From Methanomassiliicoccales archaeon (GTDB taxonomy: Archaea > Thermoplasmatota > Thermoplasmata > Methanomassiliicoccales > UBA472), in NCBI GenBank assembly GCA_036504055.1, contig DASXVU010000007.1, positions 1-64,000 on the forward strand: a stretch of 64,000 bases of DNA, given 5' to 3'. Below, piece by piece: positions 20,677 through 29,005 of this stretch; position 1 is the first letter of the stretch, and every line of letters begins with the position of its first letter. The notes below the pieces were generated by a model. It was not told the origin of the DNA and ran no database searches. It was given only the letters and a program-made list of their open reading frames with translations. Position numbers and translations under genes: made by a program.

Positions 20677-23600
20677 TTACCGGGAGCGATAGCGTTCGAC
20701 CAGCGCCTCTATCTTGCGCAGTTCTCGGTTCCTGTCCTCCACCCAGTCCCTCGACCAGACCCGGTGCATGTTCCAGCCCAGGCCCTGCAGGACCTCGCCC
20801 CGCAAACGTTCCCGGTCCCGGGCCGTCCGTCCGGAGGCGTAGTTGAGGCCGTCACATTCGATCCCCAGTATATGCTTTTGGTTCTTCTCTGGGTCCATCA
20901 CGGCCATGTCCAGCCGGTAGCCGGAGCATCCCACGCTGCGGTGCAGGGTAAGCCCCATCTTGGTCAGCGCGTTGAAGATCGAGTCCTCCAGAGGCCTCTC
21001 TCCTTCATCTTCATGACGGGTGTCACAGCCCAGCGCACCCCTTTCCCCCCGGCTCCGGGCGAATTCCATGTATCGGCGCAGGAGCAGGACGCCCTTGGAT
21101 GAAGAGCTGGGATCGATCTCCTCGGGCTGCATCGACGATATCAGCTTGACGTGCCGCCGGGCCCGGGTGATGGCAACATTCAGCCGCCGATGCCCTCCCT
21201 CCATGTTCAACGGTCCGAAGTTCATGACCAGCTTACCGTCCTGGTCTTTTCCGTATCCGACGCTGAAGAACATGACGTCCCTCTCGTCACCTTGGACGTT
21301 CTCCAGGTTCTTGACGAAGAATGATTCCTCCTGGCCTTCGTCGAAGTACTGCTGGAACTCCGGTCTCAGCTTCTTCATGTACTCGACGACCTCGAGGATG
21401 GCCAGCTGCTGCTCCTCACTGAACGCCACGACCCCCAGGGACATCTCCGGATGGGCCTTGAACTGTTCGAAGACCAGGTCGGCGACCTTCTTCGCCTCCA
21501 TCTTGTTCTCCCGCTTGCCGCCCCTATCGTAGACGCCTTCCGGCACATGCACGAACTCGATGCCGCTGGTGGGGCCCGGGAGGTCTGCCGACGGGAATGT
21601 GTAAAGACGGTTATCATAATAGTAGGCGTTGGAGAAGGCGATCAGCGATTCGTTCCGGGATCGGTAGTGCCAGAGCAGCATCTTCTGGGGCAGGCCGATG
21701 GTCGCACACTCGTCCAGTATGCTTTCCAGGTCCTGGACCTCGGTGTCGTCGTCGCCCTCTATCTTCTCGAAGAATCGGGTCGGGGGCAACTGCTTGCTAT
21801 CCCCGACGACCACCAGCTGTTTCCCGCGCATCACGCTGCCGACGGCATCCTCAGGACAGATCTGCGACGCCTCATCGAAGATCACCACATCGAAGTGCAC
21901 CTTCCTGGGGTCGACGAACTGGCAGGCGGAGAGCGGCGACATCATAACGCAGGGTTTGAGCAGTGGCAGGAGATCGGGTATGTCCGACAGCAGCTTCCGA
22001 ACGGCCATCTGCTTCGATTTCTTGGCCATCTCCTTCCGCAGCATGGACTCCTGCATCCGTACCGGGCTCGCCGGGTCTGCGGTCTTCATCTTTTCCACGC
22101 GCTGCCTCAGCTCGAACGCCAATCTCTTCCGCGCAAGCAGCAACTGAGTCTGATCCAGCTTGCGGAATTCCTCGATGAGCGCAGCATGCTCGGCGCTGTT
22201 GAAACCGGCCAACAGGGGGACGCGTCTGCGGCAGGAGTCGATCCACAGGGTGAAGAACCGTTTGCGGAACATCGGCACCAGCTTGGCCGCGTCCGCTGAA
22301 TCCCTCACAACAAGGTCCAGCATTGAGCCCAGTCCATTGGCGCTCACCTGTTCCTCGGCATCCCTGAGCTCCACCCACTCCCTGAGCCGGTCCCGGGCGT
22401 CCAGATGTGCCGAGACGAAGTTCCGTACATCGGTCATCGGCGCCGATTCCAGCGGACCGTCACCGATCCCGAGCTGATTGCCACGAAGGTATTGGCCAGG
22501 CACCTGGCAGGCGGATATGAGGGCGTCCAATGATGATATGGACTTGTCCAGGCTCTTGCTGATCTCCTCTATCCCTTCGGGATTCGCACACACCAGCTCT
22601 ACAAGCCCCTCATTAAGGTCGGCTCCCGCCCTCTGCATCAGCTCCTTCGTCCATCGCAGTGAGGAAATGAGCGCTTCCCAATCCGTACCCGGCCCGTCAA
22701 AGTACTTGCCGAAGGTCTTGTAGTCATCGGCGACCGATGAATTGAGCATTCTTCGCGAATCCTGGAATGTCTTGAGCTCCTTGATGTCGTTCAGCGCCTC
22801 CTCGTATTCCAGCTTGTGCTGGCTAAGGAGATGCATGGAGAGGACCTTCATATCTGTGCGGTAGTCGGAGCTCATCGATCTCAACGGGCTATCGTACACC
22901 TCTTCGAACTTCCGGCTGAAATGCGCCTCGTCATGTTCAAGGAACTCGTTATCATACTTGCCCAGGAGATGTTTTCTGGAGGATTCCATGGAGCGGAAGG
23001 CGGTCCTTTCGCTCTCCGCCTTGTTGATCAGGTCATCGATTAGCCGGGGCTCCATCCAGTTCTTCAATGGGAATGGAGTGGAGACGATCATGCTGGCCAT
23101 GTTTATAGTGCGCCTGCATTCGTTCAGTGACCTCGGGACGCCGATATGGGCCCTTTCGGCCAGTCTGGTCATTTTCGGCAAAGTGTCATCGATGGCGCTG
23201 ACCAGCGTTTCCAGCGAATGCAGGAACTCCTGCTGTTTGCCCATGTCCATGGACAGCGGTTCGACGTCGTGCCAGGGGTGTGTGGCTCGAACGGAGAGAA
23301 CGTCCTTCCTTCCGGCCAGTCGTTCCAGGCTCGACTCCATTGCGTCCACCTGTTTCCGTTCCAGATCAAAGGGGTCGTTCATCTTGAAGGGCAGATCAGG
23401 CACTTCATAGAGCTCCGCCAGGCGCCCATAGGCATTGAAAGGCGTGAGCCCCATTGCTCCCATCTTCATGTGCAGGAAATGCACGTATGCGTTCAGCCGG
23501 TCCCTGGTCGATGCCACCCTCTCAAGGTCGGTCAGGTCCGGTTCCTTGACCCTCTCGTTGCCGTCCAATGGCCGTCCTAGCGAGATGATCACATCGCCCT

Positions 23601-24723
23601 TGTTGGGCGTGTTGCTGTGCAGTTCTAGGCAAAAGTCGCCCAGACGGCATATATCCAGACGCTTCTTGACAACTTCCAGCGCGGCCATCTTTTCGCTGAC
23701 GAACAGGACCGTCTTGCCCGCCCACATGCATTCCGCGATCACGTTGGCGATGGTCTGGCTCTTCCCGGTCCCAGGCGGCCCCTGGAGGACCAGGTTCGCA
23801 CCCCGGCGGATGGCCTCGATGGCCTCTCCCTGGCTGGAATCGGCGTCCAGCACCAAATGGGAATCGATGGGCTTCACCAGCTCGTCCAGGCTTTCGGCGG
23901 TGGGCAGGTCCTTGGGTGTCGGCGGCAGAAGGCTGGGATCGCCGGCCAAGGCCCGTACTATCGGGTGGGCTGTGGCCACGTCCTCGTTGGTCTTCAGGTC
24001 CTCGTACATGGCCAGTTTGGTGAACGAGAATATGCCCAGGTAAGATTCCCTGGCTACGCTCCAGCCGGCCTTTTTGGCAACCGACTGCTCGACCAGCTTA
24101 AGATAGGCTTCGATATCGAAATCGTCCACATCGTCCGGAATGGCGGGTAGGTCGATGCCCTGGTCCGTGCTCATCTTCAGGACCAAGGAAGGATTCAGCA
24201 CCGCCTCGTCCCCGAAACGGACCAGCATATAAGGTTTGAACGGTTTCTTGCCCAGCTGCACTGGAACGAGCACGAGCGGGGAGGAGATCAGCCGGTCATC
24301 CCCTTCCTTTTCCTTCCAACGGAGGATGCCGAAGGTGACGTATAACACATTGACCCCCTGTTCCTGCATGAAGGTCCTCGCCTTGAGGCGAGTGGTGTAG
24401 AGAACTTTCTCGGTGTTCGGGTTAAGCGTCGAAGGCAGAACCTGTCCTGGGAGCACATGCAGCCGGTCCCTCAGCAAGCACTCCCTCGCGCCCTCCTCCG
24501 AAGCGTCCATGTCGTCCCTGATCTCGGGGCAGATGACCGCCATGGGCTTGTTCTTCTTGGCAATGAAATCAAAGAGTGCCTCCATCGATGGTTCTATGAA
24601 CTGAACGGTCGAGGATTTTGTGAGCTTGAAGTTCAACAGGCGGTTCCGAAGGCTCAGATCGATGAGCCGCGACCTCCAGTGGTCCATTTTTTTGGCCACC
24701 AATGAATTGCCATTCTCGGTCAC
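20677..24723 (-). CDS. DUF4011-type SF1 helicase with C-terminal PD-(D/E)XK nuclease domain
   Basis: 1348 residues. N-terminal DUF4011 (WRSRLIDLSLRNRLLNF, 16-32); SF1 helicase core with Walker A GPPGTGKS (315-322), FVSEKMAALEVV, Walker B VVIFDEASQICPEDA, motif III VVVGDSKQLPPTRFF and motif VI AITRARRHVKLI; a long helical insert between motifs; and a C-terminal very-short-patch/DUF559-like nuclease (GYRLDMAVMD, then GIECDGLNY and RDRERLRGEVLQGLGW). Such helicase-nucleases are often met in accessory or defence contexts (recollection), but here it stands alone between the ribosomal operon and a metabolic operon. GTG start at 24723. A TATA box and a dyad (24798-24830) lie upstream. DNA or RNA substrate unknown. 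Confidence 0.9.
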   Translation of the reverse strand: MTENGNSLVAKKMDHWRSRLIDLSLRNRLLNFKLTKSSTVQFIEPSMEALFDFIAKKNKPMAVICPEIRDDMDASEEGARECLLRDRLHVLPGQVLPSTLNPNTEKVLYTTRLKARTFMQEQGVNVLYVTFGILRWKEKEGDDRLISSPLVLVPVQLGKKPFKPYMLVRFGDEAVLNPSLVLKMSTDQGIDLPAIPDDVDDFDIEAYLKLVEQSVAKKAGWSVARESYLGIFSFTKLAMYEDLKTNEDVATAHPIVRALAGDPSLLPPTPKDLPTAESLDELVKPIDSHLVLDADSSQGEAIEAIRRGANLVLQGPPGTGKSQTIANVIAECMWAGKTVLFVSEKMAALEVVKKRLDICRLGDFCLELHSNTPNKGDVIISLGRPLDGNERVKEPDLTDLERVASTRDRLNAYVHFLHMKMGAMGLTPFNAYGRLAELYEVPDLPFKMNDPFDLERKQVDAMESSLERLAGRKDVLSVRATHPWHDVEPLSMDMGKQQEFLHSLETLVSAIDDTLPKMTRLAERAHIGVPRSLNECRRTINMASMIVSTPFPLKNWMEPRLIDDLINKAESERTAFRSMESSRKHLLGKYDNEFLEHDEAHFSRKFEEVYDSPLRSMSSDYRTDMKVLSMHLLSQHKLEYEEALNDIKELKTFQDSRRMLNSSVADDYKTFGKYFDGPGTDWEALISSLRWTKELMQRAGADLNEGLVELVCANPEGIEEISKSLDKSISSLDALISACQVPGQYLRGNQLGIGDGPLESAPMTDVRNFVSAHLDARDRLREWVELRDAEEQVSANGLGSMLDLVVRDSADAAKLVPMFRKRFFTLWIDSCRRRVPLLAGFNSAEHAALIEEFRKLDQTQLLLARKRLAFELRQRVEKMKTADPASPVRMQESMLRKEMAKKSKQMAVRKLLSDIPDLLPLLKPCVMMSPLSACQFVDPRKVHFDVVIFDEASQICPEDAVGSVMRGKQLVVVGDSKQLPPTRFFEKIEGDDDTEVQDLESILDECATIGLPQKMLLWHYRSRNESLIAFSNAYYYDNRLYTFPSADLPGPTSGIEFVHVPEGVYDRGGKRENKMEAKKVADLVFEQFKAHPEMSLGVVAFSEEQQLAILEVVEYMKKLRPEFQQYFDEGQEESFFVKNLENVQGDERDVMFFSVGYGKDQDGKLVMNFGPLNMEGGHRRLNVAITRARRHVKLISSMQPEEIDPSSSSKGVLLLRRYMEFARSRGERGALGCDTRHEDEGERPLEDSIFNALTKMGLTLHRSVGCSGYRLDMAVMDPEKNQKHILGIECDGLNYASGRTARDRERLRGEVLQGLGWNMHRVWSRDWVEDRNRELRKIEALVERYRSR

Positions 24724-26730: not shown

Positions 26731-27363
26731 TCATTTGAGGAGCCGCTTCCGCACGCTCTCCCCGTAATAAGGATTCTGGAACTCATCCCAGTAGATGGCG
26801 AACGGCCGATGCAATGACCTTCCGTTCTCCACCTTGAAGTTCTCTATCTCCATGTTCACTGGATCGATGACCAGGGCGCTGTGGAACGGCCGATTGAACA
26901 TCGAGACCTGCGTGTCTATGTCGGTCTGCGAAAGGAAGCAGCCGTGTCCCGGATGCGAGTGGTACCAGCCAACGATGATGTAGTCGAAACCGCTGTCGTC
27001 CAGCGAGTCGAACAGCTTCTCGAATCCCTGCCGGTCGAACTTGACCGATACCATCGAGGCATCGAGGTCGGTCGTCACCACATCCCTGACGAGGACATAC
27101 TCCTTTTCTCCATAACGGTATATGGTTCCAAGAAGAAACCCCATCACCTCCATGCGGGGGGACAGCCGGCTGATAGCATGATTCCTCATCTTTTCCTCGG
27201 CCAGCTTTGAGATGTAGAGGTCGAACCCTCCCGGTTCCGCCTCTTTGTACCGTTCGAGCGACGCGTTCGACAGCCACTTGTGCGGCGCCATCCGTTCCTT
27301 CTCCGGGGGCGCCTTATCCATGACCGTCCTCTCGTTGCTGCCGATGATCTTAGGCTTGGTCAC
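26731..27363 (-). CDS. JAMM/MPN+ metalloprotease, Rpn11/CSN5-like deubiquitinase-type
   Basis: 210 residues. JAMM zinc site complete: Glu72 in MEVMGFLLG, His135-x-His137 and Ser145-xx-Asp148 in VGWYHSHPGHGCFLSQTDID. The surrounding residues match eukaryotic Rpn11/CSN5 (GWYHSHPG-x-GC-x-LS-xx-D-I-x-TQ) far better than bacterial RadC or short archaeal JAMM proteins. Expected role: release the ubiquitin-like protein from targets and trim its C-terminus. The GTG at 27363 overlaps the E2 stop as GTGA; the longer frame to 27540 would lie inside the E2 gene and is rejected. A 45-residue N-terminal stretch precedes the MPN fold. Last gene of the Ubl-E2-JAMM operon. Confidence 0.92.
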   Translation of the reverse strand: MTKPKIIGSNERTVMDKAPPEKERMAPHKWLSNASLERYKEAEPGGFDLYISKLAEEKMRNHAISRLSPRMEVMGFLLGTIYRYGEKEYVLVRDVVTTDLDASMVSVKFDRQGFEKLFDSLDDSGFDYIIVGWYHSHPGHGCFLSQTDIDTQVSMFNRPFHSALVIDPVNMEIENFKVENGRSLHRPFAIYWDEFQNPYYGESVRKRLLK

Positions 27364-27863
27364 CTCCTCACCACCTTGGGAAGGGTGGTCGTGACGATCG
27401 GCAGGGTCCTGGTCCCATTGTTGAAGAAGGCCGCTGCCTCCGTGCAGCTCGAGGTACCGAAGGGGCTTTCGCCGTTGGGAGCAATGAGCAATGACTCGAT
27501 GCCCTTGACGAAGGTAAGCATGGTGGAATTGAAGCTCCATTCGCTAAGCAGCTTTGTGCATACGTGGCCCCCGTCCTCCGGGGCCATGATGTTGGGGTGA
27601 AAGATAGGAGTCTTCCAGATGACGGCCGGTTTCTCAAAGGGATAATTGGATGAGATTATGATACGGAACCTGTGATTGTACCGGTTGATGATCTTGCCGT
27701 TCTCACGAACTGGACCAGGCGTGTTGTGAAGTTCGATGTCTAACTCGACGGGATAGTGTTCCAGTTTCCCATCGGTCGTGTCCATTGTCGTTTTCAGGTA
27801 TTTCGAGCATTGGGTAAGTTCATTGCGGAGTCGGGAGATCAGGATGTCCTTGGGCAAGGGCAT
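27360..27863 (-). CDS. E2 ubiquitin-conjugating-enzyme-like protein (UBC fold)
   Basis: 167 residues with an almost canonical UBC core: strand RFRIIISSNYPFEKPAVIW, the HPN tripeptide (89-91) in IFHPNI, catalytic Cys102 in GGHVCTKLL, Trp109 in SEWSF, and the helix MLTFVKGIESLLIAPN. The spacing from HPN to the catalytic Cys (11 residues) is that of typical E2s. It should carry the ubiquitin-like protein as a thioester and transfer it to a target lysine, probably without E3, since none is encoded here. Its ATG overlaps the Ubl stop (TGATG) and its stop overlaps the JAMM start, so the three are translated as one unit. Confidence 0.92.
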   Translation of the reverse strand: MPLPKDILISRLRNELTQCSKYLKTTMDTTDGKLEHYPVELDIELHNTPGPVRENGKIINRYNHRFRIIISSNYPFEKPAVIWKTPIFHPNIMAPEDGGHVCTKLLSEWSFNSTMLTFVKGIESLLIAPNGESPFGTSSCTEAAAFFNNGTRTLPIVTTTLPKVVRR

Positions 27864-28105
27864 CAGATACCGCCCTCGGGATCAGGGATCAGTTCTATTT
27901 CGTCATTCTCTACGAAACCCAGGTCTCCGATCATTTGTTCTCCCTTGAGCAGCTTCTTTCCCTTTCGGATGACGTAAGCGCCAGCATCCTTTTCCCAGTA
28001 CATGGCGATGCTGTCGATGATCTCCTGCACCGAATTGGTCGGCTCCAGGTCCATCGCTACGTTCGAACCGGTCTCAGCATTCTTGATTATGACCCTGACA
28101 CCCAT
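27863..28105 (-). CDS. Ubiquitin-like modifier (beta-grasp) ending Gly-Gly-Ile
   Basis: 80 residues from the ATG at 28105 (GTG at 28114 would add three). Strand pattern beta-beta-alpha-beta-beta of ubiquitin: VRVIIKNAETG, SNVAMDLEP, SVQEIIDSIAMYW, AYVIRKGKKLLKGEQMIGDLG, DEIELIP. The C-terminus is PEGGI, i.e. a diglycine (78-79) plus one residue, as in ubiquitin precursors. The extra Ile must be removed before adenylation by E1; the JAMM protease two genes downstream is the natural candidate. A TATA box at 28135-28146 drives Ubl-E2-JAMM. Family call from pattern and context; sequence identity with ubiquitin is low. Confidence 0.87.
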   Translation of the reverse strand: MGVRVIIKNAETGSNVAMDLEPTNSVQEIIDSIAMYWEKDAGAYVIRKGKKLLKGEQMIGDLGFVENDEIELIPDPEGGI

Positions 28106-28134
28106 GATTTGCACCGGAATCTCGGACGTTTTCA

Positions 28135-28146
28135 GATATAAAATAG
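28135..28146 (-). promoter_or_regulatory. TATA box of the Ubl-E2-JAMM operon
   Basis: Minus strand CTATTTTATATC, centred near 28140, predicts a start at about 28114, nine bases before the ATG at 28105. It lies in the 89-bp gap after the E1 stop, so Ubl-E2-JAMM can be expressed apart from E1. Confidence 0.55.
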
Positions 28147-28194
28147 CTTGGCACTAGAGTAATCATATCTGAGAACGACGTCCGTTGGGACCAA

Positions 28195-28983
28195 TCACGG
28201 ATCTTGATGCATCGGACAGGCCGGGTCTATGTCGATCTCAAGCTGTTCGTCCGTACCATTCAGTCCGTCATAGAAAACCACGTTCTTGATGCATTTCTCC
28301 GGTCTGCCGCTCGTCAATTTCAAGGCTTCTCTGACTTGGATGGCCGCCACCACGCTTGTCGTGGTGATCTCGGCGGGCATCTTCGGCTCGAAGTAACTGA
28401 CATCCGACCCGGTGCAGCTGAACCTCTTTTCCATCACCCGGTAATGGGAGCGGTTCATGGCACACTGGAGGCACGGAGTCAGCGGCGGGAGCACCACCTG
28501 AACCTTTCCCCGGAAACCGTTCGTTCCGCCGTCGATGTAAGGCACACGGGCCAGGTATGAATGGGAGTTGACATGCAGTCTAGCGGCGATGTTGTCCAAA
28601 CATCCGAACACCAGGTCGAAGGACCGGAACCGGTCCACATCATAGGTCTCCACCCGGGCGATCGACGGGACGATGGTGGCGGAGGGGTCCAGCTCAGCTG
28701 CCCTGGTCGCGACGATCTCTGCTTTCATCAGTTTCCTTTCCGCATCCCCTTCCCGGAAGAAGACACAGCGGTTGAGGTTGGACCTGACCACATGGTCCAT
28801 GTCGACCAGTTCGATGTGTTTGAACCCAGAGAGCACCAGGTCCTTGACCGCCTCGTTGCCCAATGCCCCGGCCCCCACGACCAGACACCTCATGGCCGCT
28901 ATCCGGTCCATGTCCAGCCAGGTGATCCTTCGGGAGCGCTCCAGGCGGTCCTGGTCGAACATCCCCGGTCTCAGGTCCTGCAT
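28195..28983 (-). CDS. E1-like ubiquitin-activating enzyme (ThiF/UBA fold)
   Basis: 262 residues, single adenylation domain. GAGALG nucleotide loop (37-42), ELVDMDHVVRSNLNR with the Asp and Arg that bind ATP (Arg72), GCLDN (128-131), YIDGGTNGFRGKVQVVLP, Cys171-xx-Cys174 plus Cys256-xx-His259 as probable zinc site, candidate catalytic Cys190 in RFSCTG, and MPAEITTTSVVAA, the E1-type crossover segment. The SCTG Cys sits where UBA3/UBA1 carry the thioester Cys. No separate Cys domain or ubiquitin-fold domain. A TATA box 28 nt upstream makes ATG 28983 leaderless; GTG 28989 is the alternative. Context excludes a simple MoeB/ThiF role. Confidence 0.9.
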   Translation of the reverse strand: MQDLRPGMFDQDRLERSRRITWLDMDRIAAMRCLVVGAGALGNEAVKDLVLSGFKHIELVDMDHVVRSNLNRCVFFREGDAERKLMKAEIVATRAAELDPSATIVPSIARVETYDVDRFRSFDLVFGCLDNIAARLHVNSHSYLARVPYIDGGTNGFRGKVQVVLPPLTPCLQCAMNRSHYRVMEKRFSCTGSDVSYFEPKMPAEITTTSVVAAIQVREALKLTSGRPEKCIKNVVFYDGLNGTDEQLEIDIDPACPMHQDP

Positions 28984-29005
28984 TGTCACGTCGATTGAAC
29001 GAATG

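Follow-up and report, generated by a model that had tools for sequence, protein, structure and literature searches.

Archaeal ubiquitin-type conjugation is best described in Caldiarchaeum subterraneum and the Asgard archaea, which encode ubiquitin (Ub), E1, E2, the RING protein srfp and Rpn11, and the Caldiarchaeum system has been reconstituted in vitro (PMC5654768, PMC6043591). As this studied E1–E2–RING cascade comes from an uncultured organism, its cellular substrates and its purpose are not known. RING E3s were placed with Caldiarchaeum and Asgard archaea by Fuchs et al. 2018, who also described a 'JAMM-3' group and JAMMs nearer Rpn11 located in Ub/E1/E2 operons (PMC6043591). In 2015 the Methanomassiliicoccus luminyensis JAMM protein WP_019177758 had already been reported as related to Rpn11 (PMC4453063), and Hennell James et al. 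2017 refer to a further Cluster III in a supplement (PMC5654768).

Organization of the cluster

The window, a 64,000-nucleotide stretch of contig DASXVU010000007.1, belongs to a Methanomassiliicoccales genome of 2.66 Mb in 49 contigs that also encodes two proteasome-family subunits. The features of the locus are listed below; the residues given are those of the window proteins.

28195..28983, minus strand: gene for an E1-like activating enzyme of about 262 residues; ATG start, with GTG at 28989 possible
27863..28105, minus strand: gene for the ubiquitin-like modifier (Ubl), 80 residues; ATG start, with an alternative GTG at 28114
27360..27863, minus strand: gene for the E2 conjugating enzyme, 167 residues; HPN (89-91) and catalytic Cys102
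26731..27363, minus strand: gene for an Rpn11/CSN5-type JAMM (MPN+) protease, 210 residues; GTG start; E72...H135-S-H137...D148
29016-29008, minus strand: TATA-like TTTTATCTA 5' of the E1 gene, read directly from the sequence
28143-28136, minus strand: TATA-like box TTTTATAT 5' of the Ubl gene, read directly; candidate promoter for Ubl–E2–JAMM

The original prediction, made from this sequence, described four adjacent genes on one strand for E1, Ubl, E2 and JAMM, and all four are present, the families of E1, E2 and JAMM being assigned by Pfam. The overlaps of 1–4 bp that it gave for Ubl/E2 and E2/JAMM measure 1 bp and 4 bp, respectively. The E1 and Ubl genes are separated by 89 bp, and two promoters in the window, one for E1 and one for Ubl–E2–JAMM, are plausible on the basis of the TATA-like elements. 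In several genomes the E1 and Ubl genes overlap by 4 bp or lie at most 4 bp apart, and the two therefore probably belong to a single operon there.

Families, folds and active sites of the four proteins

The E1 matches Pfam ThiF (4.8e-49) and carries a GAGALGNE loop, an SNLNR motif, a CxxC...CxxH zinc site and a conserved Cys in SCTG; the SCTG Cys is invariant in alignment A4, and the CxxC/CxxH site is also conserved. With this Cys and with SUMO E1 subunit 2 as its best PDB match, it is a eukaryote-like E1 with a catalytic Cys, as in the Caldiarchaeum/Asgard-type system. The protein consists of the adenylation domain alone. Eukaryotic E1s bind E2 via a UFD domain, which has no separate counterpart in the window E1.

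The Ubl ends in PDPEGGI, a single residue beyond the diglycine, which would be trimmed in the mature modifier. Its sequence profile match to the Pfam ubiquitin family is marginal (0.027, below the cut-off). The AlphaFold model (pLDDT 88) adopts a beta-grasp fold that comes closest to SUMO, ubiquitin and CsUb (Caldiarchaeum Ub), with TM scores of 0.80-0.87. The fold is thus the one originally proposed and not another, and a beta-grasp modifier with a C-terminal diglycine is shared with the Caldiarchaeum/Asgard type.

The E2 matches Pfam UQ_con (9.7e-14) and, in the PDB, UBE2C (5.9e-9), and its model (pLDDT 84, with a weak C-terminal tail) matches E2 enzyme structures with TM scores of about 0.5-0.66. 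The HPN motif and the Cys are invariant in alignment A2, again as in the Caldiarchaeum/Asgard type. The JAMM protein matches Pfam JAB (1.8e-13), carries E72 and HSHPGHGCFLSQTD, and ranks eukaryotic Rpn11 (2.9e-17) ahead of Caldiarchaeum Rpn11 (1.3e-13) and CSN5 (8e-12) among its PDB matches; its metal ligands (Glu, HxH, Asp) are invariant in alignment A3. An Rpn11-type JAMM with these residues is likewise a feature of the Caldiarchaeum/Asgard type. These findings bear out the identification of a ubiquitin-like conjugation/deconjugation cluster, with a beta-grasp modifier, a canonical E2 motif and an Rpn11-type JAMM, in a Thermoplasmatota archaeon.

The E1 is nonetheless a short ThiF/MoeB-fold protein, and archaeal SAMPs serve both conjugation and sulfur-carrier jobs, so that the Ubl could be conceived as a ThiS/MoaD/SAMP/Urm1-like carrier whose thiocarboxylate, made by the E1, serves tRNA or cofactor thiolation. 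We regard such a role as most improbable. The conserved HPN and Cys of the E2 speak against it, as does the closer similarity of the E1 to SUMO/NEDD8/ubiquitin E1s than to MoeB (the best PDB match is SUMO E1 subunit 2, 8.8e-30, against 8.5e-17 for MoeB); moreover, contig C19 encodes a separate, stronger ThiF paralogue, and the cluster is wholly lost from many otherwise complete relatives. The SAMP-type, E2-less identity was rejected on account of the E2, which is present and conserved.

Conservation and chromosomal site

Of 61 relatives, 51 yielded an E2 match; 14 control genomes yielded none. Every sufficiently long locus of the Methanomassiliicoccales (about 50 genomes) has the order E1–Ubl–E2–JAMM, a conservation that exceeds chance. 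The Ubl GG is found in all 51 loci of the order, followed by 0-9 residues, and the E2 Cys is kept in all readable copies from the order. The loss of catalytic residues across orthologues, named at the outset as a possible weakness of the assignment, was not seen, the exceptions being the JAMM proteins of two genomes of genus g13. At these two loci (L082, L083) the JAMM HxH metal motif is lost, the E2 Cys is retained and the Ubl has nothing after its GG, as though no trimming were needed.

Among sampled Thermoplasmatota genomes, 80 of 392 have an E2 match, a count that includes G061 and G066, whose matches are weak or of another type. The G061 locus (L114, 8768-11141) holds a different system, with a tandem Ubl, a Ubl–E2 fusion, JAMM, E1 and an adjoining HerA-like ATPase, and looks like a bacterial-type cluster. 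Other variants were observed within the phylum. G065, G074, G094 and G107 encode two E2 copies apiece, with a second Ubl also in G065 and G074. In three class-level relatives (L099, 8810-13875, and similarly L100 and L102) zinc ribbons and a DUF835-type domain precede the Ubl in one fusion protein, the JAMM includes a long coiled coil and the E1 gene is the last of the cluster. Family f21 (L107, 9910-10626; L108, 6288-7004) encodes E2-like proteins, possibly a UEV-like remnant, in which the catalytic Cys is displaced or absent, close to a helical-repeat protein with a RING.

The cluster occupies a single chromosomal location in most genomes of the order and in several further families of the class. 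TrpRS and PheRS flank it on one side; on the other lie either SIS and TIM-barrel genes or the ribosomal genes L18e-L13-S9. A concatenated E1+Ubl+E2 tree, which has no clean outgroup, recovers families f5 and f6 as monophyletic and f1 and f2 as incompletely so, and loosely favours vertical inheritance.

The original description of the neighbours as metabolic or membrane genes rather than defence genes stands for the adjoining SIS and TIM-barrel genes, which are metabolic-type, and is not strictly right in view of a gene further away. At 20677-24723 (minus strand), beyond these two convergent genes and about 2 kb from the cluster, lies a gene for a 1348-residue DUF4011/helicase/MTES_1575 nuclease protein with a strong match to the PADLOC candidate PDC-S37 and to Hhe; among the loci examined, 15 hold related genes. 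With this candidate defence gene as the reservation, the position of the cluster reads as housekeeping.

A Bil-, Bub- or CBASS-Cap2-like antiviral operon would be built from the same kinds of parts, and besides the nearby PDC-S37/Hhe-like gene it could draw on weak PADLOC matches of the E1 (to E1–E2 models; BilD 0.005) and the JAMM (BilC 5.7e-6). The Ubl and the E2 are without a PADLOC match, however, and the one fixed site, loosely tracking taxonomy and having TrpRS, PheRS and ribosomal L18e-L13-S9 among its neighbours, is not what such an operon would lead one to expect; nor did searches of plasmids and viral contigs return a match to the cluster. We therefore consider an antiviral role very unlikely. 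On the same observations (fixed site, no Ubl or E2 match, no plasmid or viral copies), the candidate identity of a Bil/CBASS-type mobile defence operon was rejected.

Natural losses and relics

In genomes without E2, the site of the cluster is still recognisable and is either cleanly empty or holds relics. In G026, G038 and G053 the SIS gene abuts TrpRS directly. A lone Ubl relic persists in G035 and four g21 genomes, in none of them with GG, and the RING protein described below is gone from the genomes with Ubl relics. G058 retains an E1 relic that has neither the Gly-rich loop nor the Cys, together with a JAMM relic from which HxH is missing; a JAMM relic also persists in G042. The scores of full-length E1 orthologues are 360-428 bits, as against about 107 or less for the best E1-like matches in the E2-lacking genomes.

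Since GG is lost in every Ubl relic, the diglycine is retained only in the presence of E1 and E2, a pattern that a conjugation function predicts. The losses in genera g13, g18 and g21 indicate that the parts are retained or lost as a set. We also considered a vestigial locus, which is ruled out, as the active sites in the window are intact and signs of decay are confined to genomes that are losing the system.

A RING-like protein encoded elsewhere in the genome

The original prediction noted no RING or other E3 nearby. This is true of the neighbourhood, as none is encoded in the four-gene clusters of the order; an E3-less system, as the remark implies, is not supported, because contig C37 of the genome encodes a RING-like protein. 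Its RING domain matches PF13639 below the Pfam cut-off; the protein carries CQICMGRVKPGLNVAKCECGKSFHDVCLERTGFCPYC, followed by zinc ribbons. The ligand order is C-C-C-C-H-C-C-C, compared with the textbook C3HC4, and in some f6 genomes Ser or Ala replaces one of the ligands. The PDB matches listed for the RING profile (A6) are nearly all eukaryotic RING E3s (best 4e-6) and include Ark2C/RNF165, Arkadia, RNF24, AMFR and RLIM. Relatives share the architecture, most of them with a hydrophobic segment ahead of the RING that the copy in the window genome is without; the protein is apparently membrane-anchored in many relatives and soluble in the window genome.

In a first search, with RING coverage judged by eye, the RING part was found in 48 of 51 relatives with E2 and in none of 10 without; of the three genomes missed, two are incomplete and one (G027) was recovered by a later RING-only profile. 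That profile was built because a further search mixed in ribbon-only matches, and generic zinc-ribbon matches were not counted. With it, the RING was detected in 39/39 E2-containing genomes of the order as compared with 1/21 among the E2-lacking genomes listed, and across the phylum in 72/80 versus 25/312, leaving eight E2-containing genomes without a match. Within genera g13 and g18 the figures are 6/6 and 0/6. Fisher values for this association are overstated because the genomes are related, and the contrast within the two genera is the safer one. The RING and the cluster are retained or lost jointly.

Physical linkage was found in four genomes of three other Thermoplasmatota families (G065, G074, G088 and G079), where the RING gene lies immediately 5' of cluster genes. 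In the first three it forms the end of a very large helical-repeat protein encoded immediately 5' of the Ubl or E2 gene, and in G079 a RING gene with an apparent membrane anchor directly precedes E1–Ubl–E2–JAMM. A RING gene inside the operon, as in the Caldiarchaeum/Asgard type, was not found in the Methanomassiliicoccales clusters examined.

Conjugation might proceed without any E3, the E2 modifying its targets directly and the RING being an unrelated zinc protein co-inherited by coincidence. E2s are able to transfer without an E3 in vitro, the four-gene cluster of the order is without a RING, and the RING domain is present in the 25 E2-less genomes. The co-loss within g13 and g18, the distribution in the order (39/39 versus 1/21 of those listed) and the linkage in the four genomes of other families all weigh against this possibility, which we judge unlikely. 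We favour instead a RING protein that would act as the E3, as its similarity to eukaryotic ligases suggests.

The RING-bearing proteins of the 25 E2-less genomes, many of about 1500 residues, indicate that the domain therefore has another use or partner. In family f25 (L228, L229, L233) the RING proteins are receptor-like, with Ig/PKD-like repeats, which are probably extracellular, a single membrane span and a RING at the C terminus; in this predicted layout they are like eukaryotic transmembrane RING E3s. In the window genome and in G291, which is of another family, the RING gene has an FtsZ/CetZ-like gene as its neighbour (L138, L230).

Proposed cascade

Taken together, our data make it likely that the locus encodes a vertically inherited Ubl conjugation/deconjugation cascade that is part of the cell's own complement of genes and has an unlinked RING ligase, and the cascade is probably a working one. 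The E1 would adenylate the C-terminal Gly of the Ubl and load it on its own conserved Cys, from which the Ubl would pass to Cys102 of the E2. The unlinked RING protein would then bring the charged E2 to substrates, while the Rpn11-type JAMM would cut the Ubl precursor back to GG and may also strip the Ubl from substrates. Proteins of the cytosol or the membrane, we infer, would thereby be modified reversibly. This chemistry (activation, transfer, RING-assisted transfer, and trimming or removal) is proposed by analogy, because of what is known of the family of each part and of the reconstituted Caldiarchaeum system (PMC5654768, PMC6043591). Against the cascade count the sub-threshold score and atypical ligand order of the RING, its occurrence in the 25 E2-less genomes, the eight E2-containing genomes in which it was not matched and the lack of a UFD domain in the E1.

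As the Methanomassiliicoccales include cultured methanogens, the system is testable and its substrates could be read by mass spectrometry. No Arg or Lys lies near PDPEGG, so that a tryptic digest would leave a long remnant of the Ubl. If the RING protein is a ligase, ubiquitin-type systems of one more archaeal branch included E3s, which would bear directly on the origin of eukaryotic ubiquitin signalling. We give even chances to the broader proposal that the Methanomassiliicoccales and several other Thermoplasmatota, next to the Caldarchaeales and the Asgard archaea, have a third archaeal branch of complete E1–E2–RING–JAMM systems. Its ligases would be unlinked, often membrane-anchored RING proteins, and the supposed E3-less intermediate stage of ubiquitin evolution would be an artefact of an operon-only view.

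Relationship to known systems

The claim that no system had been described in this lineage holds in part. The M. luminyensis JAMM (PMC4453063) and the JAMM-3 operons (PMC6043591) are published, and likened by description they probably represent the same JAMM family and operon type as the window; the four-gene cluster may thus, also in view of the Cluster III of Hennell James et al., already be on record. The two JAMM papers give no E3 for the group, whereas here a RING partner emerges through co-inheritance. No report of a RING association with the cluster was found in the literature searched, whose scope stops short of the supplementary 'Cluster III' of Hennell James 2017, and the RING link appears new.

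Bil (BilABCD) and Bub or CBASS Cap2-Cap3 systems share with the window the set of Ubl, E1, E2 and JAB. They differ in that the window Ubl and E2 match no defence model and the locus is fixed, housekeeping-like and absent from the plasmids and viral contigs searched; the window Ubl is also single-domain, whereas Bil combines an ISG15-like BilA with two Ubl domains with BilB, BilC and BilD. The Haloferax SAMP system (UbaA, JAMM1) shares an archaeal setting, an E1-like protein and a JAMM. To our knowledge SAMP systems are without an E2, unlike the window cluster. The UbaA model scores 80 bits on the window E1 against a cut-off of 450, and the desampylase model likewise falls far below its own cut-off.

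A close likeness in parts is to the Ub–E1–E2–srfp(RING)–Rpn11 system of C. subterraneum and Asgard archaea (PMC5654768, PMC6043591), with which the window genome shares a diglycine Ubl with a short tail, E1, an E2 with HPN and Cys, an Rpn11-type JAMM and a RING protein. The best fold matches of the window Ubl include CsUb, yet the two are only 19% identical. Unlike in Caldiarchaeum and Asgard, the JAMM gene of the window lies inside the operon on the same strand, and the RING protein of the order is unlinked, has another ligand order and is often membrane-anchored or fused to zinc ribbons.
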